Assembly: GCA_013153605.1 (NCBI GenBank)
Contig: JAADED010000082.1
Coordinates: forward strand, 1 to 36,022
Direction: 5' to 3'
Length of the DNA stretch: 36,022 nucleotides
Origin: Chlorobiota bacterium
Lineage (GTDB): Bacteria; Bacteroidota; Bacteroidia; Flavobacteriales; Flavobacteriaceae
Part shown: piece after piece, positions 22,841 through 35,629 of the stretch
Layout: each line of letters starts with the position of its first letter
Numbering within the stretch: position 1 is the first letter of the stretch
Program-made: the position numbers and the translations under genes
Notes under the pieces: generated by a model
Seen by the model: only the letters and a program-made list of their open reading frames with translations
What the model was told of the DNA's origin: nothing
The model's database searches: none

Positions 22841-23513
22841 TATCGCCATAGACGGACATTCATCCACCGGAAAGGGCACTTTGGCCAAAGCCTTGGCCCG
22901 CGAATTGGGCTACGTGTATATCGACACGGGCGCCATGTACCGGGCCGTAACCCTTTACGCCTTGCGCCGGGGATGGATCACGGACAGCGGAGTGGACCGG
23001 GACGCCCTACTCCGTCATTTGGACGACATCCGCATCGAATTTCGCCACAATCCCGCTACGGGCCGCTCGGAAACAATCCTCAATGGCGAAAACGTGGAAG
23101 AAGCCATCCGCGACATGCGCGTATCGGCCCACGTAAGCCGTATTGCCGCCATTCCCGAGGTGAGGCGCAAGCTGGTATCGCTTCAGCAAGCCATTGCCGC
23201 CCGCAAAGGGGTGGTAATGGACGGCCGCGATATTGGCACGGTGGTCATGCCCGACGCGGAATTGAAAATCTTTATGACCGCCCGGCCCGACATTCGCGCC
23301 CGACGCCGCTACAACGAACTGATTGCCAAAGGACGCCCGGCCGATTACGAGGAGGTATATCGAAACCTGGTGGAACGCGACCGGCTGGATTCCACCCGCG
23401 AAGCCTCTCCCCTGGTCCAAGCCCCCGACGCCCGACTTTTGGACAATTCGGACCTGACGCCCGAACAACAATTGGAGGTGGCCCTTAAGTGGGTCAAAGA
23501 ACTTACCCCTTAA
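22827..23513 (+). CDS. cmk: Cytidylate kinase
   Basis: The 228-residue enzyme has the P-loop G10-HSSTGKGT and the family blocks YVYIDTGAMYRAVTLYALRRG, VVMDGRDIGTVVMPDAELKIFMTA and DRLDSTREASPLVQAPDARLLDNSD. It phosphorylates CMP and dCMP. Its start lies in the end of porQ (14-bp overlap), so it depends on the porQ transcript. Its 3' end overlaps the convergent PAP2 gene by 11 bp. Confidence 0.96.
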   Translation: MKKINIAIDGHSSTGKGTLAKALARELGYVYIDTGAMYRAVTLYALRRGWITDSGVDRDALLRHLDDIRIEFRHNPATGRSETILNGENVEEAIRDMRVSAHVSRIAAIPEVRRKLVSLQQAIAARKGVVMDGRDIGTVVMPDAELKIFMTARPDIRARRRYNELIAKGRPADYEEVYRNLVERDRLDSTREASPLVQAPDARLLDNSDLTPEQQLEVALKWVKELTP

Positions 23514-24054
23514 TGCGGGGCAATACTTTTTCTCTGACCAAATAGCCCGTGAAGAATCCCAAAACAATCCCTTCGATCGTACCCGCCAACACGTCGCTCG
23601 GGTAATGCACGCCGACGTAAATACGGCTGTAGGCCAAAAGGGCGGCCCACCCGAACCAAATAGCCACCGCCCACCGGGGTCGGCGCAACACAGCGGCCAA
23701 ATAGGAAGCCAAAAGAAAAGAATTGGCGGCATGGCCCGAAAAAAAGGAATATTGGGCGGGACATTTTAAGATGCGAAGGGTTTGTTGCAAAGCCTCCACT
23801 TGGCACGGCCGCGGACGGGCGGTCACATGCTTTAGCCAATTGATAAATTGATCGTTGAAGGTGAGAAGAATCACAAATATCGTGAGAGCCGTCAATCCGC
23901 GCCGCCATCCCAGGCGCCAAATCACATAGGCCCCGGTGAGGAGGTAAAACCACCACCAAAAATGCTGGTCGGTGACGGTCATCCAAAAGGCGTCCCACCG
24001 CTCGGAGCCCAAGCGGTTGAGATAAATCAAAAGCCTTTCGTCGAGCCCGCCCAT
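23503..24054 (-). CDS. PAP2-family membrane phosphatase
   Basis: The 183-residue membrane protein has the three PAP2 motifs. These are K75-x6-R82-P83 (KHVTARPRP), FSGH at 105-108 (the usual PSGH with Phe for Pro), and S143-R-x5-H150-x3-D154. About five or six hydrophobic segments are visible. Such enzymes dephosphorylate lipid phosphates such as phosphatidate or undecaprenyl pyrophosphate; the actual substrate is not determinable. The start ATG shares one base with the tatA stop (TAATG on the minus strand), so the pair is translationally coupled. Confidence 0.92.
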   Translation of the reverse strand: MGGLDERLLIYLNRLGSERWDAFWMTVTDQHFWWWFYLLTGAYVIWRLGWRRGLTALTIFVILLTFNDQFINWLKHVTARPRPCQVEALQQTLRILKCPAQYSFFSGHAANSFLLASYLAAVLRRPRWAVAIWFGWAALLAYSRIYVGVHYPSDVLAGTIEGIVLGFFTGYLVREKVLPRIKG

Positions 24055-24365
24055 TATTGGCGTTTAACCGGCCCTTTGAAGGACTTCAGCTTATCGCCCA
24101 AGTCGTCGAGGGAATCGTCCACGCGGGTGAGTTTACCCAACTCCTCGAATTCTTTTTTGATACCCTCTCCCAATTTCTTACCCTCTTGCCAAGCTTCGTC
24201 GCTTTCTTTCATGATTTCGTTCTTCACGTTATGGGTGGCGTCGCGCAACATACGGATGCCCCGCCCCAAATTACGGGCGATTTCGGGGATTTTTTCCGGT
24301 CCGAAAATCAAAAGAATGACCAGAAAAACCACGATCAATTCGGGTGTACCTATAAAGAGAAGCAT
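24054..24365 (-). CDS. tatA: Twin-arginine translocase subunit TatA/TatE type
   Basis: The 103-residue protein has a short N-terminal membrane helix (about 7-20), the hinge motif F21-GPEKIPE28, an amphipathic helix (IARNLGRGIRMLRDATHNVKNEI) and a charged tail. This is the TatA/B architecture, which forms the pore for folded twin-arginine substrates. I chose the ATG at 24365 because it puts the membrane helix at the N-terminus; an upstream TTG at 24386 would add seven residues and overlap the promoter. No tatC is in the window. Confidence 0.93.
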   Translation of the reverse strand: MLLFIGTPELIVVFLVILLIFGPEKIPEIARNLGRGIRMLRDATHNVKNEIMKESDEAWQEGKKLGEGIKKEFEELGKLTRVDDSLDDLGDKLKSFKGPVKRQ

Positions 24366-24383
24366 CGGGCGAGGGCTTTCATG

Positions 24384-24414
24384 CAAAGGTACGTATTCGG
24401 CTTCGAAAACCCAA
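24384..24414 (-). promoter_or_regulatory. Promoter of tatA-PAP2
   Basis: On the minus strand, TTG (24414-24412) is followed after 20 bases by TACCTTTG (24391-24384). This is an exact match to TTG-N20-TAnnTTTG and the best promoter match in the window. The tatA ATG lies 18 bases downstream. The promoter sits in the 54-bp gap after the receptor gene, so tatA need not depend on riboswitch-controlled transcription. Confidence 0.75.
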
Positions 24415-24419
24415 GGGGC

Positions 24420-26774
24420 TCAGAAAATCAGCTTGATTCCCGCCATAAAATGCCGTTCCGCCTGGGGATAATAGTACGGCGTATCGCCCCACATATAGCC
24501 GTTGGCCGCATATTTGGCATCGAAAAGATTGTACACGTGCAATGCCACGGACCCGCGTACCGGCCGGTCGGGGCGGCCGAAAGCATATCGGATTCCTCCG
24601 TCCACCCGCGTATATGCCGGCAAAAGCGACTCGGGAATATTGCGGTTGTCCATATACTGGTCGCCCACATGCTTGGCCGAAACGAATGCCGCCCATCCCT
24701 TGCGGGGTTTCCATGTAAATTTGGCGCCGGCCACAATACCGGGCGAATAGGCAATCACCGTATTGCCGTAATGCCGTAACGTATCCCCGTCGAAGGCCGT
24801 ATAATCGATGTTGCGGTTGCGGCTGAGGGTAAAGAACAGGCGCCCTTCCCATTGGGGTGCCGTCCGTACCACCTGTTGTTCCCATCCGGCCCGGTAGGAA
24901 CGCCCCACGTTTTCGCGCACGGGATTGCCCACCTCGTCCAAGCGACCCGAATAGACCAGCTGGTCGAGGTAATACATATAATATAAATTGGTTTTGGCAA
25001 GCCATTGACCGGAGCGCCATTCCCATCCGGCTTCCAGGTCGTAGAGAGTTTCGGGGCGGGGTTTCACGGGATTTTCCACGTAATCGGTGCGGTTGGGCTC
25101 CCTGTGGGTGCGCGCCGCATACACGTAAGCTTGCCAATGAGTGTCGTTCTTATAAAACACCCCGATTTTGGGATTGACGAAGAAGAGCTTGTCGGTCAAA
25201 TCGATTTTTTCGTCGGGATCGAAGGTGCGCTCGGGATTATGCACGATGCGGTAGTCGATGGCGCGAATTTGAATATCCGTAAAGAGGCGCCACCGCTCGT
25301 CGGCCCGGTAAGTATGGCGCACAAAGAAATTGAATTCGTCTTTGATTCCGCGGTTTTCGTAGTAGCGATGTCGGATTTCCGTATTGTCGGCAAAGCGGGC
25401 CCAAATCACTTCGCCGTAATGCAATCCGTCGTATCGATTGACTCCCAATCCGGCGGTCCAATCCATGCCCCCGCTTCGGATAAAGAGGTTAAACACCCCT
25501 CCGCCGAAATGATTGTCCAGCCACTTGCGGCGAATCAAATCGGTATGATCCACCACCGCGGTTCCCAACCGAACGGGTTGCATGCCGTATTTGTCGAAGG
25601 GTTGATCCTGTTTGTATTGCTCGTAATAGCCGTAGCCCCGTACGTAAAAGGCCGCCAGCTTGGCCCGGACGCCCGCTCCCAGTCGGCGGCTCAAGTGAAG
25701 CTGGTAATGCTTTTGGGTATAATCGTCCACTTCATTGTCATAGAAGCGTACGATGCGGCCCAAGGAATCGTAGATGGCGCCCGCATAATTGAAAGTGGGA
25801 TCGGTTTCGAAAGTTTCCTTGTCCACTCCGTACCATGCCTGGTAGGTGCGTTCGTGGCCGGCAAAATGGATCAGGTGAAGTTGTGTGCGTGACCATTTGC
25901 GTGAAGCCGCGGCATAATAGGATTTCATGTCCGCGAATGCGCGGTCGATATATCCGTCCGAATAAATTTTGGACCCCCGCAACAGGAATGCCCATCCCGA
26001 GGGGGTGCGCCCCGTGTTGGCCTTAAAACTCAGTCTCGAGGTATTGAACGAGCCGGCGGCCGCTTCCATTCCGGCCCATGCCGTATCGGCCGGAAGGAGG
26101 GTTTGCAAATGAATGTTGGCTCCGAATGCGCCGGTTCCGTAGGTGGAAGTGCCCACTCCCCGCTGGAGCTCGATGCTTGCCACGGTGGAGGCGAAATCGG
26201 GAATGTCCACCCAATATACGGCTTGGCTTTCCGGGTCGTTGAGAGGAATACCGTTAAGAGTTACGTTGATTTGACGGGGCCCGATTCCGCGAATGCGCAA
26301 GCCGGTATATCCCACCCCGTGTCCGGGATCCGAAAAGCTGACCACCGAAGGCAATTCGTCCAGCAAAAAGGGGATGTCTTTGGCCGTATATTTTTCTTCC
26401 AAGGCCCGGCGACCCAGGGTGTCATGCGTAACGGGTGTTTCCTCTCCCGCTCGCGTGGCGGTTATCACCACTTCGCGGAGCGATTCCTGTCGCTCGGGAC
26501 GTAAAACCAATGTCACGGAGCCTCGCAATCGGATCCGCGCGCGGGCATAAAATCCGTCTTTGCGGGCTTCCACGGTGTAAACGCCTTCGGGCAACCGAAA
26601 CTCGGCCGTACCGTCCGGGCCGGTGATTTTTTCGAGGCCCGCTTCGCGAACGCTCACCCGGAATCCTTCGGGCGATGTTTCAGCCGTTTCAATGCGAACT
26701 TTAAGCACATAGGTTTGAGCCCCGGCTCCCCATGCGAGCCAGGCCGTAAGAATGGCGGTTAAAAGATGTTTCAT
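24420..26774 (-). CDS. TonB-dependent receptor under TPP riboswitch control (predicted thiamin transporter)
   Basis: The 784-residue outer-membrane protein has a signal peptide ending GAGAQ, then a carboxypeptidase-regulatory-like beta-sandwich (about 20-95). The segment ESLREVVITATRAGE is the likely TonB box region. The plug domain (about 115-225) contains LRIRGIGPRQINVTLNGIPLND and GVGTSTYGTGAFGANI. A 22-strand-type barrel ends in MAGIKLIF with a terminal Phe. I chose the ATG at 26774 because it begins the signal peptide; an upstream start at 26825 would lie inside the riboswitch. The TPP riboswitch directly upstream indicates uptake of thiamin or a precursor, as predicted and shown for TPP-regulated receptors in other Bacteroidota. 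No pnuT or thiamin kinase gene follows. Confidence 0.9.
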   Translation of the reverse strand: MKHLLTAILTAWLAWGAGAQTYVLKVRIETAETSPEGFRVSVREAGLEKITGPDGTAEFRLPEGVYTVEARKDGFYARARIRLRGSVTLVLRPERQESLREVVITATRAGEETPVTHDTLGRRALEEKYTAKDIPFLLDELPSVVSFSDPGHGVGYTGLRIRGIGPRQINVTLNGIPLNDPESQAVYWVDIPDFASTVASIELQRGVGTSTYGTGAFGANIHLQTLLPADTAWAGMEAAAGSFNTSRLSFKANTGRTPSGWAFLLRGSKIYSDGYIDRAFADMKSYYAAASRKWSRTQLHLIHFAGHERTYQAWYGVDKETFETDPTFNYAGAIYDSLGRIVRFYDNEVDDYTQKHYQLHLSRRLGAGVRAKLAAFYVRGYGYYEQYKQDQPFDKYGMQPVRLGTAVVDHTDLIRRKWLDNHFGGGVFNLFIRSGGMDWTAGLGVNRYDGLHYGEVIWARFADNTEIRHRYYENRGIKDEFNFFVRHTYRADERWRLFTDIQIRAIDYRIVHNPERTFDPDEKIDLTDKLFFVNPKIGVFYKNDTHWQAYVYAARTHREPNRTDYVENPVKPRPETLYDLEAGWEWRSGQWLAKTNLYYMYYLDQLVYSGRLDEVGNPVRENVGRSYRAGWEQQVVRTAPQWEGRLFFTLSRNRNIDYTAFDGDTLRHYGNTVIAYSPGIVAGAKFTWKPRKGWAAFVSAKHVGDQYMDNRNIPESLLPAYTRVDGGIRYAFGRPDRPVRGSVALHVYNLFDAKYAANGYMWGDTPYYYPQAERHFMAGIKLIF

Positions 26775-26809
26775 AAACCCCGTTTTGCGAAGGGTGTGTG
26801 AGACGTACT

Positions 26810-26885
26810 TTTCCCTTGGCGGCATTACCCGCCCAGGTTCAAAGGGTATGATCTCAGCCCGTGGTATTAGGGCACCCCCTTCAGG
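26810..26885 (-). promoter_or_regulatory. TPP (thiamin pyrophosphate) riboswitch
   Basis: Read on the minus strand, the segment contains the conserved TPP-aptamer elements in order. These are GGGGTGCC (26878-26871), CTGAGA (26857-26852), ACCCTTTGAACCTG (26847-26834), GGGTAATGCC (26830-26821) and AAGGGA (26817-26812). GCCC and GGGC flank a TAATACCAC loop as the P2/P3-type stem. The closing P1 stem is not obvious by eye. The receptor ATG lies 36 bases after the last element, so control of translation initiation is plausible; no T-tract terminator is visible in the gap. Confidence 0.95.
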
Positions 26886-26894
26886 TTAGCGCGA

Positions 26895-26925
26895 CAAAGA
26901 TAGGTAATTTCAGATTTTCTCGAAA
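26895..26925 (-). promoter_or_regulatory. Promoter of the TPP-riboswitch transcript
   Basis: On the minus strand, TATCTTTG (26902-26895) matches TAnnTTTG exactly. TTT at 26925-26923 lies 20 bases before it, a partial -33 match. Transcription would begin just before the riboswitch, so the aptamer would be at the 5' end of the message. Confidence 0.55.
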
Positions 26926-27821: not shown

Positions 27822-28430
27822 ATGTACGAATATATCGAAGGCCGGTTGGCGGAACTTACGCCCGTGCACGCCGTGGTTGATCCGGGCGGAATCGGCTATT
27901 TGCTCCGTATTTCCATGCACACCTACGAACAATTGCAAGGCAAGGAAAGGGTACGGCTATATACGGAACTCATCGTGCGGGAAGACGGCTTTTTTCTCTT
28001 CGGATTTGCCGACAAAGAGGAGCGTGAACTTTTTCGCCTGTTGATTTCGGTAAGCGGCGTGGGCAGTGCATCGGCCATGCTCATTCTCTCGGCCATGGAT
28101 CCGGCGCGGGTGCGAGAAGCCATCATCGGCGAAGACGTCCAGTTGCTCAAATCGGTGAAAGGAATCGGACCCAAAACCGCCAAACGTCTTATTGTGGAAC
28201 TCAAAGACAAACTCCTGAAAGCCGGACCCGCCGAAACCGTAACTCCCGTGTCGGGTGCGTCTCCCGCCTCCGGTGATGCCATCGCCGCCCTCGAAGCCTT
28301 GGGTTATCCTCCCAAAACGGCCGTGCCCCTGGTCCGAAAAATCATCGCCGAAAATCCCGATTTAACGGTGGAACAAATAATAAAGCAAGCCCTGAATCGT
28401 TTGATAAAGGACAAATGCAAAACATGTTAA
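27822..28430 (+). CDS. ruvA: Holliday junction branch migration protein RuvA
   Basis: The 202-residue protein has the three RuvA parts. An OB-fold (about 1-64) starts MYEYIEGRLAEL. The double helix-hairpin-helix region has LLISVSGVGSASAMLIL and VKGIGPKTAKRLIVELKDKL. A flexible linker (VTPVSGASPASG) leads to the C-terminal RuvB-binding domain (ALEALGYPPKTA..). RuvA clamps four-way junctions and loads RuvB. Its stop codon lies 8 bp before the preferred sprA start. A ruvA-sprA pairing is frequent in Flavobacteriia as far as I recall. Confidence 0.96.
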   Translation: MYEYIEGRLAELTPVHAVVDPGGIGYLLRISMHTYEQLQGKERVRLYTELIVREDGFFLFGFADKEERELFRLLISVSGVGSASAMLILSAMDPARVREAIIGEDVQLLKSVKGIGPKTAKRLIVELKDKLLKAGPAETVTPVSGASPASGDAIAALEALGYPPKTAVPLVRKIIAENPDLTVEQIIKQALNRLIKDKCKTC

Positions 28431-28438
28431 CCGGAGGC

Positions 28439-31400
28439 ATGAAAAAAGCGGGGCTCCTATTGATTTTTCTGTGGGCCGCCTACGCCTACGCCCAACAAGA
28501 CACTACGACCGTCGCCCAAGATACGGCCGTGACTCCGCTAAAAACCCGTTTTCCGGACGCCCCCTCGGTCAAATTGATTTACGAATACGACCCCGAAAAA
28601 AACCTGTACATCAAAAAATATAAAGTCGGGGATTACGACGTGGGTTATCCCGCCGTGCTCACTCCCCGCGAATATTTCGCCCTTCTTCAACGGGAACAAA
28701 TCAACAAAAATTTTAAAGAAACCAACGACGCCATCGCGGGCAAGGACCAGGAAAAACAAAAAGACCTGTTGCCCCAATTTTATGTGAACAGCAAGTTTTT
28801 CGAAAGCCTGTTCGGGGGCAACAATATCGTGATCGAACCCAGGGGAACGTTCGAATTGGACTTGGGCGTACGTTACACGCGACGCGACAATCCCGCCATT
28901 CCGGTGCGCAACCGCACCAACTTCACCCCCGACCTCAACCAACGCATCAGCATGGGTTTGACCGGCCGCATCGGCAAGCGGTTGAACCTCAACCTCAACT
29001 ACGACACCCAGTCCATGTTTCAATTCAACAACCAGGTCAAATTGGATTTCAACCTGGACGAAGATGCCATCCTTCAAAAAATCGAGGTGGGCAACGTGAA
29101 TATGCAAACGGCCAACAGCCTCCTCACGGGGCCTCAAAACCTTATGGGCCTTAAAACGGTGATGAAATTCGGCAATACGGAAATCACCCTGGTGGGTGCC
29201 GAACAAAAATCCTCCATGCAAATCATCAACGCTCGGGGCGGCGAAGTGCTGGAAGATTTCGAAAAAGACATTCTCGGCTACGACGATAACCGCCACTTTT
29301 TCCTGGCCCAATATTTCCGCGACCGCTACGACCAAGCCCTCGAACGTTATCCTTACATCAACTCCCAAGTGCGTATTACGCGGGTGGAGGTATGGATTAC
29401 CAACCGCAATTCCAATCCCGATAACGTGCGCAACATTGTGGCCATTCAGGATTTGGGCGAAAGTTACCGCATCGGCCTGGACAATCCGCCGCCCGGATAT
29501 ATTGTGCGTCCCGGCGCATTGCCCGACAATAACGTAAACCTGATGAATCCCGAAGCCATTGGGACCCCCGGTTCGCTCTTAAATCCCAATATTCGGCAAA
29601 TCGCCACCGTGGATGCGGGATTCAGCGGCATTACGCCCGTCAACGGCAAGGATTACGTGGCTTTGGAAAATGCGGTCAAGCTCGACAGCACCCAATATAC
29701 CCTATATCCCAAACTCGGTTACATCAGCCTCCGGCGCAAACTCAACCCCGACGAGGTATTGGCGGTGGCTTTCGAATACAGCGTGGGCGGAAAAGTGTAT
29801 AAAGTGGGCGAATTCACCGACGACGGCATCGTGTATCCCCAAACGCTGGTGGTCAAACTTCTCAAAAGCAACATTGTCGACACCCGCGAGCCGGCGTGGG
29901 ACTTAATGATGAAAAACATTTACGCCCTCAATGCCTACGGCATTTCGCAAGAAGATTTCATGATGCACATCCTCTATGCCGACCCCACGCCGTTGAACTA
30001 CATCAACCCCGTAGGCTCCACCCCTTTACCGCCGGCGGTGAAGGATAAAATTCTGTTGCATGTCTTTCACATGGACGAGCTCAACACCTCCTTGGATCCG
30101 CAACCGGGCGGGGACGGCTTTTTCGATTTTATTCCCGGCATCACGGTGGACCCCCAAAACGCCCTGATCAAATTCACCACGGTGGAACCTTTCGGTCGCT
30201 ACCTGTTCGAAAAATTGAGGTTGGACCCCGGCGAATCCTACGACGATCCCCATACCTGGAATGCCAACCAGGCCAAATATGTATTTAAGGAATTGTACAC
30301 CCTCTCCCCTTCGCAAGCCCGGCAATTTCCCGAAAAAAACAAATTCCTCCTCAAAGGAAAATATAAATCCTCCATGGGCGGAGGCATCAATATCGGAGGT
30401 TTTAATATCCCCCGCGGGTCGGTACACGTAACCGCCGGCGGACGCGAACTGGTGGAAGGAGTGGATTATGTGGTCAACTATCAGGCCGGACGGGTGGAAA
30501 TCATCAACCCCGCGCTCAAAGCTTCCAACGTGCCCATCCAAGTGCGGGTGGAACAAAGCGACCTGTTTCAGCAAAGCACCAAAATCTTTACGGGAATCGA
30601 CATTCAACACCGGTTTAACGAAAATTTCACCGTCGGCGCCACTTATTTGAAGCTCAAAGAAAAACCCATTACTTGGAAAGCCGATTACGGCTACGAGCCG
30701 CTCAACAACGCCCTCATGGGCATGAACGGTAATTTCAGCACCTCTTTGAATTTCCTCACCAAATGGGTGAACTATCTTCCTTACGTCAAAACGGATGCCG
30801 AAAGCCGGTTGACATTGCGTTCGGAAATGGCTTATCTCAAACCCGGCCTGGCCGAGGTTTCGGATATTGCGGGCGAGAGTGCCAGCTTGATCGAAGATTT
30901 CGAAAGCGCTCAATCGCAAGTGGACCTTACCCTTCCCTACCCCTGGAAATTGTCGCCCACGCCCGCCCGTTTTCCCGAAAGCCGGCTGATCGACAATTGG
31001 GAATACGGCAAAAACAGGGCGAAACTGGCCTGGTATTTTATCGACCCCGTTTTTTATTCGAACAATCCTCCGCCGGGCATCGACAATCAGGAAATTTCCA
31101 AAGACGAAAACCGTCCGGTGCGCATCGACGAGCTGTTCGACCGCGATATCCAGGCGGGCACCTATAATTTGACCAACACTCTGAACCTCGCCTATTTCCC
31201 CGACGAACGGGGGCCTTACAACTACGACACCCGCGTCGATCCCGCCACGGGCAAGCTCCTTCATCCCGAACAACGATGGGCGGGAATTTTCCGGCCCATG
31301 ACCATTACGGATTTCGAACAGGCCAACGTCCAATACATCACCTTTTGGGTGATGGATCCCTTCTACAACAACCCCGTTCCCCAAACGGGCGGAAAGTTAT

Positions 31401-34400
31401 ACATCAATTTGGGTTACATTAAAGAAGATATCCTCTATGACGGCCGCAAGCAATACGAAAACGGCCTTCCCGGCGACGGCGGAACGGCCAATACCGTGTT
31501 TACCGCATGGGGAAAAGTGCCCGTCAACCAGAGCCTCACATACGCTTTTAGCGACGACCCGGCCGAACGGGCCAATCAGGATGTGGGTCTGGACGGCCTC
31601 CGCAACGACGAAGAACAAACCCATTTCGCCTCGTTCCTCAACGCCTTGCCGCCCGCGGTGCGTACGACCCTCACCGGCGACCCTTCGGGCGACGATTTCG
31701 TCCATTACCTCGACGCCCAGGGCGGGATCGTGGAACGCTACAAAAATTTCAATAACACCCAGGGCAATACACCCGTATCCACAAACAATGCCAATGCGGG
31801 CGAAACCTACCCCGACACCGAAGACATCGACCGGGATCAAACCATGAACACCATCGACGCTTATTTCGAATACGAAATTCCCATACGTCCCGGTCTCACC
31901 CTTTCGGATCCTTACGTGAAAGACATCAAGGAAACCACCTACACCGACGCCACCCGCCGACAGAGAACGGCCCGCTGGATTCAATTCAAAGTGCCGATCA
32001 CGGAATTTACGTCCCGATACGGCAACATCAACGATTTCCGCTCCATCAAATTCATGCGCCTGTATTTGACGGGCTTCGACCGGCCGGTGGTTTTGCGCTT
32101 CGCCACCTTGGATCTGGTGCGTAGCGATTGGCGCGTCTATCAACAAACGTTGGATCCCAACGATCCCAACCCTTCGGACGATCCCACCACGGTGGAAGTT
32201 ACCTCGGTGAGCAGTGAGGAAAATCAAACCCGTACGGGAGTGCAATACGTGAGCCCGCCCGGCATCGTGCGAGAAGAAATTTACCAAAACAATCAGCTCA
32301 TCCGGCAAAACGAACAGGCCCTGTCGATTCGCGTATGCGATTTGGAACCCAAAGACGCCCGAGGTGCTTTCAAATATGTGGCGGTGGACATGCGCCAATT
32401 CAAAAATCTGAAAATGTTCATCCATGCCGAAAGCATTCCGGGCCAACCTCCATTGGCCGACGGCGACATGGAAGCCTTCCTCCGTTTCGGCACGGATTTG
32501 TCGCAAAACTTTTATGAAATTCGCTTACCGCTCAAAATCACCTCGCCCGGCACCTCCGACCCCGAAGAGGTATGGCCGGTGGAAAACCGCATGGAACTCA
32601 GGCTGGAGCTCCTCCAAAAACTCAAACTCGACCTGATTCGCAACCGAAGGGCCAATCCGGCGGACCTGATTTTGGTGGACGAAGCCCAACTGGATCCCGC
32701 CGCGGCGGGACGGCCCAACCGCCTCACCATAGGAATTAAGGGAAACCCCGATTTTTCGGACGTGCGCGTGATCATGGTGGGCGTACGCAACCGGACTTCT
32801 TCCCTCATTTGCGGCGAAGCCTGGTTCAACGAATTGCGCCTTACGGAGATGAAAAACGAAGGGGGCTGGGCCACCCAGGGAAGCGCCGATCTCACCCTTG
32901 CCGACCTGGCCACCTTCAACTTTGCCGGCGGTCTGGCCACCAGCGGATTCGGACCCCTCGAACAAGGACCGCTCGGCCGATCGGTGGAAAACAAATACCA
33001 TTATACGTTCAATTCGGCCCTGAACGTGGGCAAATTCCTACCGCCGAAGTGGAATCTCACCATTCCGGTCAATTACACGGTTACCAAACAATTCATCCGC
33101 CCCGAATACGACCCCGTCCATCGCGACATCCTGTTGGACGACAGGCTGGCCGCGGCCCAAACGCCGCAAGAACGGGACAGCATCCTCAACGTGGCGCGCG
33201 ACATCCAATCCTACAAAAGCATCGCCCTGGTGGGCGTCAAAAAGAATTACCCCAACCGCACCTCGGGAACCGGCGCCAATCAAGAAGTGAAAAAACATTT
33301 TTACGACATCGAAAACTTTACTTTCGATTTTACCTACACCCAAGCGGATCACACCAATTACGAAGTGGAAATGAACCGCATGCAAACGGTGCAAACGGGA
33401 TTCGTGTATTCCTACAACATCCCTTCCAAACCTTTTCAGCCGTTGAGCAAGGTCAAAGCCAAATGGCTCAACAAAAAATATTTAAGGTTTATCAAGGATT
33501 TTAATTTCAACCTGTTGCCCTCGGCCGTGACTTTCCGCACCCATATCGACCGGCGATTCACCAATTTCCGCGTGCGCCAAATCATCGATTACGGATTGGA
33601 TTTTCCGCCCATGCAAAGCCGGGATTATAAAGTGAACGCCGATTACTCCATCAATTATTCGCCTTTTCGGTCCATGAACATTACTTTGACGGGCAACGCC
33701 TTCCGCACGGTAAAAAATTACTTCAATCCCGACGGCACCTTGCGGTACGACGCCACCGTGTGGGACGGATTTTTCCATCCCGGCGATCCCTACATCATGC
33801 AACAGGGTTTTAATTTGACTTACAAATTCCCGTTTGACAAATTCCCGCTCATTAATTTCATTTCGGCCAATTACAATTACAACGGCTCTTTCCAATGGCA
33901 ACGGCGACCCGAAGTGATGGCCGACGTGGACGGATACGACCTGGGCAATACCATTCAGAATGCCAATACCCAACAAATCACGGGAACGGTGGATTTGAAA
34001 AAAATCTACGATTTCACGGGCCTGACGTATTGGGAAAACAAATGGTCGGGCAAGAAAGTGCGTCCTCGCAAATCCAAAACACGGAAAAAAAGCCGGACCA
34101 AAAAAGGACGTGCGCAAACTTCCAAAGAAACGGAAAAGGCGGAAAAAAGCGAAAAAGAAACCGAAACCAAAGAGAAGGAAAAAGAAAAAGGATTGCCCGG
34201 TCTGGCGGCGCGTAACAATGAGAAGGAAAAACGGGGCGGTTCCGCCCAAAAAACGACGGGTCGCAAAGTGTATTTCAACCCCACCAAAGCCCACAAGGCG
34301 GTGGCCTCGGTGCTTCACGTCTTCACCTCGGTCAAACGCATCCGCTTCCAATACAAACAAACCAACGGATTGCTCATTCCGGGGTATCTCCCTTCCACGG

Positions 34401-35629
34401 GGTATTTGGGAACGCTCAATCCCGACATTCCTTTTGTATTGGGTTGGACCGAACCCGAAGTCCGTTATGAACTGGCCCGCAAGGGATGGCTTACCGAATA
34501 TCCGGGCTTGAACGAAGCCTTTATGCAAAACTTCCAGGAGCAGTGGAATTTCTCCACCAATTTCCAACCCGTTAAAAACCTGAAAATCGACGTGCGGGCC
34601 ACACGCCAATATGCCAAAAATTATTCGGAAACGTTCCGGGTATCCAATCGCACATACCAACCCTTGGTGCCCACGCTGGAAGGCCATTTTGCCGTCAGTT
34701 GGCTTATGCTCAAAACCGCCAACGAACCGTTCGACCCCGACAACAGCCCGGCCATCGAACGTATGCGCCGCAATTCTTATGTGATCGCCTCCCGCCTGGC
34801 GGCCGCCCGCGGACTGCCGGTACCTTCCGCCGGGTATCCCGACGGGTACGGATTTTTCCAAACCGACGTGCTGGTGCTCTCCTTTATTTCGGCCTTTACC
34901 ATGCGCGATCCGGGTAAAATCCCTCTCACGCCTTTTGCCAACGTACCCGTACCCAACTGGAAAATCAAATACACGGGACTGAGCCGGACCGAATTGTTCC
35001 GCAAACATTTCAAACGCTTCAGTCTCGAGCATGCCTATCAATCGGATTTGACGGTCAACCGGTTCCGCAACAATTTGGAATTTTTCCAAGACCCCCAAGC
35101 CCGCGATATTACAGGGAATTATTACGGCCAACTCAGTTTCGGCGACATTATCATGACCGAACAATTCAACCCTCTGGTGCGGGTCCAAATGGAAATGAAA
35201 AACAATCTCCAATTGGACGTGGCTCTCAAAAAGGACCGCCTGGTGGGGCTGAACACCGAAAATTATACGCTCACCCATATTTCGGGCAAAGAAGTGGTGG
35301 TGGGTTTGGGTTATCGCATTAAGGACGTGTATCTTCCCCTCCGCCTGGGAGGCAACAGCTACGAATTCCGTTCGGATTTGATCGTAAAAGCCGATTTTTC
35401 GTACCGCAAAAACCTCAACGTGATTTACGGCTTCTTGCAAACCAACTCCCAGCCCGTCAGCGGCAAATACATTTACAATTTCCGCTTCTCGGCCGATTAC
35501 GCTTTTTCCAAAAACCTTTCGGCCATCCTGTTTTACGAGCACAATTATTCGCGCTTTGCGGTGTCCACCTCCTATCCGCTGACCAGCATCCGCGCCGGAT
35601 TTACTTTCAAATATACCTTCGGCAACTGA
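28439..35629 (+). CDS. sprA: SprA, outer-membrane translocon of the type IX secretion system
   Basis: The 2396-residue protein matches the giant size of SprA/Sov, the 36-strand outer-membrane channel through which type IX cargo passes. It is needed for gliding adhesin delivery. A signal peptide ends AYAYAQQ. Blocks near the start (VKLIYEYDPEKNLYIKKYKVGDY, YPAVLTPREYF) and LPLKI..VWPVENRMELRLELL near residues 1363-1398 are typical. An acidic, Ca-site-like stretch (DVGLDGLRNDEEQ, then DTEDIDRDQTMNTIDAYFEYE) lies at about 1050-1145. A Lys/Glu/Arg-rich low-complexity insert covers about 1870-1942. I chose the ATG at 28439 because it begins the signal peptide; an upstream ATG at 28415 lies within ruvA. 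GGAGG precedes the start by only one base. Confidence 0.96.
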   Translation: MKKAGLLLIFLWAAYAYAQQDTTTVAQDTAVTPLKTRFPDAPSVKLIYEYDPEKNLYIKKYKVGDYDVGYPAVLTPREYFALLQREQINKNFKETNDAIAGKDQEKQKDLLPQFYVNSKFFESLFGGNNIVIEPRGTFELDLGVRYTRRDNPAIPVRNRTNFTPDLNQRISMGLTGRIGKRLNLNLNYDTQSMFQFNNQVKLDFNLDEDAILQKIEVGNVNMQTANSLLTGPQNLMGLKTVMKFGNTEITLVGAEQKSSMQIINARGGEVLEDFEKDILGYDDNRHFFLAQYFRDRYDQALERYPYINSQVRITRVEVWITNRNSNPDNVRNIVAIQDLGESYRIGLDNPPPGYIVRPGALPDNNVNLMNPEAIGTPGSLLNPNIRQIATVDAGFSGITPVNGKDYVALENAVKLDSTQYTLYPKLGYISLRRKLNPDEVLAVAFEYSVGGKVYKVGEFTDDGIVYPQTLVVKLLKSNIVDTREPAWDLMMKNIYALNAYGISQEDFMMHILYADPTPLNYINPVGSTPLPPAVKDKILLHVFHMDELNTSLDPQPGGDGFFDFIPGITVDPQNALIKFTTVEPFGRYLFEKLRLDPGESYDDPHTWNANQAKYVFKELYTLSPSQARQFPEKNKFLLKGKYKSSMGGGINIGGFNIPRGSVHVTAGGRELVEGVDYVVNYQAGRVEIINPALKASNVPIQVRVEQSDLFQQSTKIFTGIDIQHRFNENFTVGATYLKLKEKPITWKADYGYEPLNNALMGMNGNFSTSLNFLTKWVNYLPYVKTDAESRLTLRSEMAYLKPGLAEVSDIAGESASLIEDFESAQSQVDLTLPYPWKLSPTPARFPESRLIDNWEYGKNRAKLAWYFIDPVFYSNNPPPGIDNQEISKDENRPVRIDELFDRDIQAGTYNLTNTLNLAYFPDERGPYNYDTRVDPATGKLLHPEQRWAGIFRPMTITDFEQANVQYITFWVMDPFYNNPVPQTGGKLYINLGYIKEDILYDGRKQYENGLPGDGGTANTVFTAWGKVPVNQSLTYAFSDDPAERANQDVGLDGLRNDEEQTHFASFLNALPPAVRTTLTGDPSGDDFVHYLDAQGGIVERYKNFNNTQGNTPVSTNNANAGETYPDTEDIDRDQTMNTIDAYFEYEIPIRPGLTLSDPYVKDIKETTYTDATRRQRTARWIQFKVPITEFTSRYGNINDFRSIKFMRLYLTGFDRPVVLRFATLDLVRSDWRVYQQTLDPNDPNPSDDPTTVEVTSVSSEENQTRTGVQYVSPPGIVREEIYQNNQLIRQNEQALSIRVCDLEPKDARGAFKYVAVDMRQFKNLKMFIHAESIPGQPPLADGDMEAFLRFGTDLSQNFYEIRLPLKITSPGTSDPEEVWPVENRMELRLELLQKLKLDLIRNRRANPADLILVDEAQLDPAAAGRPNRLTIGIKGNPDFSDVRVIMVGVRNRTSSLICGEAWFNELRLTEMKNEGGWATQGSADLTLADLATFNFAGGLATSGFGPLEQGPLGRSVENKYHYTFNSALNVGKFLPPKWNLTIPVNYTVTKQFIRPEYDPVHRDILLDDRLAAAQTPQERDSILNVARDIQSYKSIALVGVKKNYPNRTSGTGANQEVKKHFYDIENFTFDFTYTQADHTNYEVEMNRMQTVQTGFVYSYNIPSKPFQPLSKVKAKWLNKKYLRFIKDFNFNLLPSAVTFRTHIDRRFTNFRVRQIIDYGLDFPPMQSRDYKVNADYSINYSPFRSMNITLTGNAFRTVKNYFNPDGTLRYDATVWDGFFHPGDPYIMQQGFNLTYKFPFDKFPLINFISANYNYNGSFQWQRRPEVMADVDGYDLGNTIQNANTQQITGTVDLKKIYDFTGLTYWENKWSGKKVRPRKSKTRKKSRTKKGRAQTSKETEKAEKSEKETETKEKEKEKGLPGLAARNNEKEKRGGSAQKTTGRKVYFNPTKAHKAVASVLHVFTSVKRIRFQYKQTNGLLIPGYLPSTGYLGTLNPDIPFVLGWTEPEVRYELARKGWLTEYPGLNEAFMQNFQEQWNFSTNFQPVKNLKIDVRATRQYAKNYSETFRVSNRTYQPLVPTLEGHFAVSWLMLKTANEPFDPDNSPAIERMRRNSYVIASRLAAARGLPVPSAGYPDGYGFFQTDVLVLSFISAFTMRDPGKIPLTPFANVPVPNWKIKYTGLSRTELFRKHFKRFSLEHAYQSDLTVNRFRNNLEFFQDPQARDITGNYYGQLSFGDIIMTEQFNPLVRVQMEMKNNLQLDVALKKDRLVGLNTENYTLTHISGKEVVVGLGYRIKDVYLPLRLGGNSYEFRSDLIVKADFSYRKNLNVIYGFLQTNSQPVSGKYIYNFRFSADYAFSKNLSAILFYEHNYSRFAVSTSYPLTSIRAGFTFKYTFGN

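Follow-up and report, generated by a model that had tools for sequence, protein, structure and literature searches.

The TPP riboswitch (RF00059, the THI element) belongs to the most widespread classes of riboswitch, and textbooks list the need for the diphosphate among its features. With bases numbered as in E. coli thiM, here and throughout, G60, C77 and G78 coordinate the metal holding the pyrophosphate, and of these only G78 contacts the pyrophosphate directly (PMC3764141); switching of the E. coli thiM element itself requires recognition of the phosphate or pyrophosphate (PMC4112796). The arrangement of the TonB-dependent receptor OMthi in gut Bacteroidetes has been described, and OMthi of B. 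thetaiotaomicron (BT2390) supports thiamin use (PMC5613172). The BT2390 mRNA does not respond to thiamin while the biosynthetic operon does (PMC5613172), which fits control of the receptor at translation. PMC7366714 cites a 2019 preprint on TPP riboswitches of Bacteroides that act at the transcriptional or translational level. In two clusters from Flavobacteriales, omr1 had already been noted close to a TPP riboswitch (PMC10881298).

The stretch of DNA analysed here, called the window, comprises 36,022 nt of contig JAADED010000082.1 (assembly GCA_013153605.1, Chlorobiota bacterium), and its closest named relatives are metagenome-assembled Flavobacteriales. The preliminary description of the window proposed a thiamin uptake gene standing alone, i.e., a TonB-dependent receptor controlled by a TPP riboswitch. 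The features of the locus, in the direction of transcription, are as follows.

26895..26902, minus strand: promoter -7 element TATCTTTG (TAnnTTTG), recognised by its motif and its conserved spacing to the aptamer
26795..26890, minus strand: TPP-type aptamer, variant form (RF00059, 45.1 bits, E 8.5e-8, gathering score 54.3)
26877..26883, minus strand: TGAAGGG, aptamer 5' strand (P1/P2 side), partner of the downstream box (sequence, folding)
26844..26857, minus strand: intact pyrimidine sensor, with the CTGAGA T-loop at 26852-26857 and the ACCC strand of P2 at 26844-26847
26814..26837, minus strand: P4-P5, CCT-G-GGCGG-GTAATG-CCGCC-A-AGG, with J4/5 and J5/4 zipped into a helix and CC (26818-26819) replacing C77-G78 (match alignment, covariation)
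26788..26794, minus strand: anti-aptamer box CCCTTCG, complement of the aptamer 5' strand (ligand-free pairing probability 0.96)
26777..26795, minus strand: possible start-codon-sequestering hairpin ACCC (26792-26795)/GGGT (26777-26780), an alternative to the anti-aptamer pairing (sequence)
24420..26774, minus strand: TonB-dependent receptor of the OMthi/Omr1 group, 784 aa (ORF list, profile search, homologues, tree)
24054..24386, minus strand: tatA, a neighbour outside the system
23503..24054, minus strand: PAP2-family phosphatase, a neighbour outside the system

The receptor reading frame as listed spans 24420..26825 on the minus strand, and its ATG at 26825 sits within the aptamer; the start is likely the ATG at 26774, from which the protein begins MKHLLTAILTAWLAWGAGAQ..., resembling a signal peptide. 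The plug domain is recognised (PF07715, E 1.9e-12) and a siderophore-type barrel model is matched partially; among NCBIfam models it comes closest to general ones for siderophore and B12 receptors, far under their cut-offs, and a search of PDB sequences gave no match at E 0.001. In the receptor tree the protein groups with homologues that head receptor-pnuT-TPK operons carrying a TPP riboswitch, such as those of G343 and G351, which have the canonical element and fall within the tree. The assignment to thiamin-type TonB receptors thus holds, and by analogy the protein would be an OMthi/Omr1-type transporter of a thiamin compound.

The locus shares with Bacteroides OMthi/Omr1 and its pnuT-tnr3 genes the homologous receptor and the TPP-type element, and departs from that operon in what follows the receptor: tatA and the PAP2 phosphatase, as had been stated, with neither pnuT nor TPK behind them. 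A -7-type motif, TACCTTTG, lies near the tatA start (24384-24391, minus strand). The description of the receptor as an isolated regulon member does not hold as stated, since this is the usual layout in the order, where partner genes rarely follow the receptor. In the order, unlike in Bacteroides, PnuC and a NadR-like kinase are encoded upstream or elsewhere, TPK is mostly absent, ThiL is kept, and the aptamer has the variant form; many relatives carry Thiamine_BP (PF01910), PnuC and a NadR-like AAA_28 kinase upstream of the aptamer, and in G024 the receptor, PnuC and TPK are consecutive behind a canonical aptamer. The Thiamine_BP, PnuC and AAA_28 kinase genes form a conserved cluster (L238:1474-2880, with equivalents in L239-L241 and L249), which often follows 4'-phosphopantetheinyl-transferase-like and PcrB-like genes; L250 has a fusion of the kinase with DUF4301. 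Elsewhere in the window, 28415-35629 holds an intact SprA-type gliding/type IX secretion gene (2404 aa, PF14349).

The RF00059 match spans the full length of the aptamer, and its 45.1 bits lie under the gathering score of 54.3, so that scanning the window with default settings gives no hit. In the 119 relatives, RF00059 matches and receptor orthologues were searched for independently, and a match was found 20-420 nt upstream, on the same strand, for 104 of the 106 receptor orthologues in the order, which rules out a chance match. As 88 of these 104 elements also fall below the gathering score, the low score is a trait of the group and not a defect of a single sequence; the median is 43.7 bits for receptor-linked elements vs 69 bits for TPP matches (>30 bits) lacking such a link. 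Judged solely by the covariance threshold named in the preliminary description, the element would fail. A -7 element just before the aptamer had also been reported, and TATCTTTG is indeed there; the motif in itself is no rarer in the window than by chance (16 occurrences vs 20 expected), but its placement is conserved, TAnnTT(T/C)G standing 10-20 nt 5' of the aptamer GGGG in 86 of 93 relatives' leaders. TPP-like aptamers with no close same-strand gene downstream occur as well (L178:301-401, L179:3336-3430 and L176:3238-3330; 43-48 bits); they are followed by a terminator-like hairpin of the GTTCCCTTTG-TTTTTT type and point towards the 3' end of a gene on the opposite strand; in L178 and L179 that gene, or one nearby, is prfB-like. 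They are possibly stand-alone sRNAs.

The claim that all hallmark TPP motifs are present is correct for the motif order, the CUGAGA T-loop, P2, P4, P5, L5 and the location within a thiamin-gene leader, and incorrect for the pyrophosphate sensor, where C77-G78 is replaced. The pyrimidine sensor (T-loop U39-A43 with P2/P3) is complete, with CTGAGA and the helices GGGG/ACCC and GCCC/GGGC. The canonical P4-P5 reads ACCUG-AU-CUGG-[AUAAUG]-CCAG-CGU-AGGG and that of the window ACCUG-GGCGG-[GUAAUG]-CCGCC-A-AGGG; in place of C77-G78, J5/4 has bases that pair with J4/5. The same replacement is seen in 97 of the 104 receptor-linked copies of the order (92 of the 104 parsed by script and 12 by eye), the seven copies keeping C77-G78 being those of G024, G030, G085, G096, G101, G105 and G111. 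High-scoring elements before other genes of the same genomes carry C-G in 24 of 24 cases, one of them as U-G (G039, UGU), and pnuC-linked aptamers likewise retain C-G. Outside the order, C-G is kept in nearly all receptor-linked aptamers inspected; G125 is clearly zipped, and a few metagenome-assembled genomes, e.g., L273, look so.

The replacement behaves as a helix. Pairing holds for 98.2% of cells across 21 distinct 26-nt segments, all five P5 pairs are altered on both sides, and the covariation amounts to 0.52 vs 0.145 in shuffled alignments (0/500 shuffles). Because the zipped positions covary in this way, bases that are near-invariant in the TPP class vary freely here provided that they pair. 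The variant retains G60, U59/A80, the pyrimidine sensor and L5, so the contact bases are changed while the scaffold is held by compensatory changes, as in variants of altered ligand. A mere deletion of C77-G78 was considered and revised, since some Bacteroidales have a 3-bp P5 and yet keep C-G; the variant is better described as one in which bases able to pair have taken the place of the J bases, leaving one layer fewer than with a 4-bp P5. The loci L144 and L145 of genus g99 end in CCGCGA and are ambiguous between both forms. TPP-type aptamers devoid of C77-G78 also stand right before the start codon of divergent TonB receptors of about 680 aa, family f6 (L180:3513-3601 and L181:291-379).

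On the receptor tree, which is a quick one with long branches and only three in-order canonical rows, about five changes between the canonical and zipped forms are seen, at least four of them forced by well-supported branches; a single origin is thus unsupported, and the zipped form has probably evolved repeatedly. The receptor behind the zipped aptamer of G125 (L203:287-381) falls among receptors of another family that have canonical aptamers, and the origin of this zipped aptamer is likely independent.

The copy in the window is the lowest-scoring of its genus (45 vs 55-61 bits) and differs from those of congeners in three respects: P1 is missing, with no complementarity in the window as against 3-4 bp in congeners, a fifth G is present, and the sequestering arm ATGCGAAG is absent. 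An assembly or sequence error is ruled out for P4-P5, which congeners share.

Downstream of the aptamer, all nine members of the genus to which the window belongs have CCCTTCG or a close variant shortly 5' of the start codon, complementing the aptamer 5' strand CGAAGGG or TGAAGGG. In the ligand-free fold of the window leader this box is on the aptamer strand with a probability of 0.96, P2 has 0.00, and the start codon is mostly open. In most congeners the box (as CTTCGCA) has an alternative pairing partner, TGCGAAG, an arm that overlaps the start codon (ATGCGAAG); eight T follow this arm in several of them. Transcription termination is possible in some congeners. In the window, where the TGCGAAG arm is lacking, GGGT at 26777-26780, directly 5' of the ATG, may take its place. 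Elsewhere in the order the box is in a hairpin loop, e.g., GAATAA-TTACCCCTTT-TTATTC, with many compensated alternative stems. Such a hairpin with a C-rich loop is found in 60 of 85 receptor leaders vs 6.9 expected, in one of 24 other TPP leaders, and, outside the order, in 9 of 29 leaders vs 2.9 expected. The complementarity of the bases flanking the box to the aptamer of the same leader is 185 vs 162 after permutation (0/2000); these are stronger tests of the box than the best-helix test against the aptamer strand, which gave 18.8 vs 15.2 shuffled with 17% of shuffles equally high. The element would work as an OFF switch, with the start codon as its point of action.

As to the pathway, family searches of the window genome found ThiL, which is present in 117 of the 119 relatives, and found no ThiC, no ThiE above the cut-off, no TPK (PF04263) and no PnuC (PF04973). 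Among the 119 relatives TPK occurs in 14 and PnuC in 112, the eight congeners all being among the latter, and the absence of PnuC from the window genome may thus be an assembly gap. The inner-membrane partner that was expected elsewhere was not found in the assembly, nor was TPK, and no second TPP-like element turned up in the 1.62-Mb, 96% complete genome (RF00059, E up to 10). With ThiC and ThiE absent and ThiL present, only an intact thiamin compound would be usable, which makes the earlier suggestion of a precursor as substrate unlikely. The NadR-like kinase of the relatives would then make TMP, and ThiL would make TPP; nicotinamide riboside is a possible alternative substrate of PnuC and the kinase. 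The variant does not track the loss of TPK, as TPK occurs together with the variant in one genus, g93, and is lacking from several genomes with canonical aptamers. Since the variant arose at least about four times and some genomes carrying it have TPK, the content of pathway genes points to no single ligand.

From the computed variant aptamer, its link to the receptor, the covariation of the zipped loop and the conserved box, we infer a ligand, a direction of switching and a receptor substrate, and arrive at the following reading, with a probability of roughly 0.6: the locus encodes an OMthi/Omr1 receptor under a variant aptamer that senses a form of thiamin without the diphosphate (thiamin or TMP) and acts as an OFF switch at the start codon. 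The aptamer would keep its pyrimidine-reading half and L5 while the internal loop that reads the pyrophosphate is zipped into a helix, and would therefore probably recognise thiamin or TMP without relying on the diphosphate. When no ligand is present, TGAAGGG of the aptamer would pair with CCCTTCG before the start codon, leaving the start open; with ligand bound, the aptamer would hold TGAAGGG, and the freed CCC would pair beside the start codon and stop translation. An extension of this reading to the whole order, in which a TPP-scaffold riboswitch for thiamin or TMP was zipped several times independently, uses a hairpin loop competing for the P2 strand, and accompanies a NadR-like kinase and ThiL in place of TPK, is put forward tentatively, at somewhat under even odds.

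The changed pocket could still bind TPP, the usual end-product signal, and the retention of G60, U59/A80 and the pyrimidine sensor, together with the canonical aptamers of receptors outside the order, would suit a functional TPP sensor in which a differently arranged metal lets the zipped helix bind the diphosphate, perhaps more weakly, with repression only at high TPP. Against this stands the fact that the two most conserved bases of J5/4, including the pyrophosphate-touching G78 (PMC3764141), vary freely as covarying pairs, and that the other TPP elements of the same genomes retain C77-G78; we regard such a sensor as unlikely, if worth keeping in mind. Decay of a TPP riboswitch into a remnant without ligand control, kept in the window genome for constitutive expression, would account for the lowest score of the genus, the missing P1 and the extra G, and is nonetheless improbable: the window copy still has an intact pyrimidine sensor, L5 and P5, its anti-aptamer box is retained and forms pairs in the fold, and the strongly compensated structure is conserved across the order.

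It is very improbable that the receptor imports another substrate (a siderophore, cobalamin or nicotinamide riboside) and that its link to the aptamer is incidental. General siderophore and B12 receptors are its best NCBIfam models, albeit far under cut-off, and PnuC with a NadR-like kinase would also suit nicotinamide riboside; however, a TPP-type element precedes 104 of the 106 orthologues, Thiamine_BP belongs to the cluster of the relatives, homologues share operons with TPK, and OMthi of B. thetaiotaomicron supports thiamin use (PMC5613172).

Set beside known riboswitches, the element differs from RF00059 in the replaced C77-G78, the zipped loop, the weak or absent P1 and the scores of 88 of 104 receptor-linked copies below the Rfam cut-off. 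It resembles the altered-specificity variants of the FMN and guanidine-IV classes in joining a known scaffold to changed ligand-contact bases and to one type of gene; a literature search of open papers found no TPP-class variant of such a kind. With the HMP-PP riboswitch (thiS motif, PMC6478431) it has in common a ligand of the thiamin pathway other than TPP, here a putative one, but the structures are unrelated, that of the window being built on the TPP scaffold.

If the preferred reading of a variant aptamer sensing thiamin or TMP is true, this would be a naturally occurring change of riboswitch ligand, for which the canonical copies in those genomes serve as controls; the variant occurs order-wide and is tied to the receptor, not to biosynthesis genes. 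Many marine flavobacteria depend on external B1, and since the Rfam threshold misses most of the variant elements, flavobacterial B1 uptake is probably under-annotated. The upstream Thiamine_BP, PnuC and NadR-like kinase genes, along with the near-universal ThiL and the rare TPK, offer a testable route from the imported vitamin to TPP.
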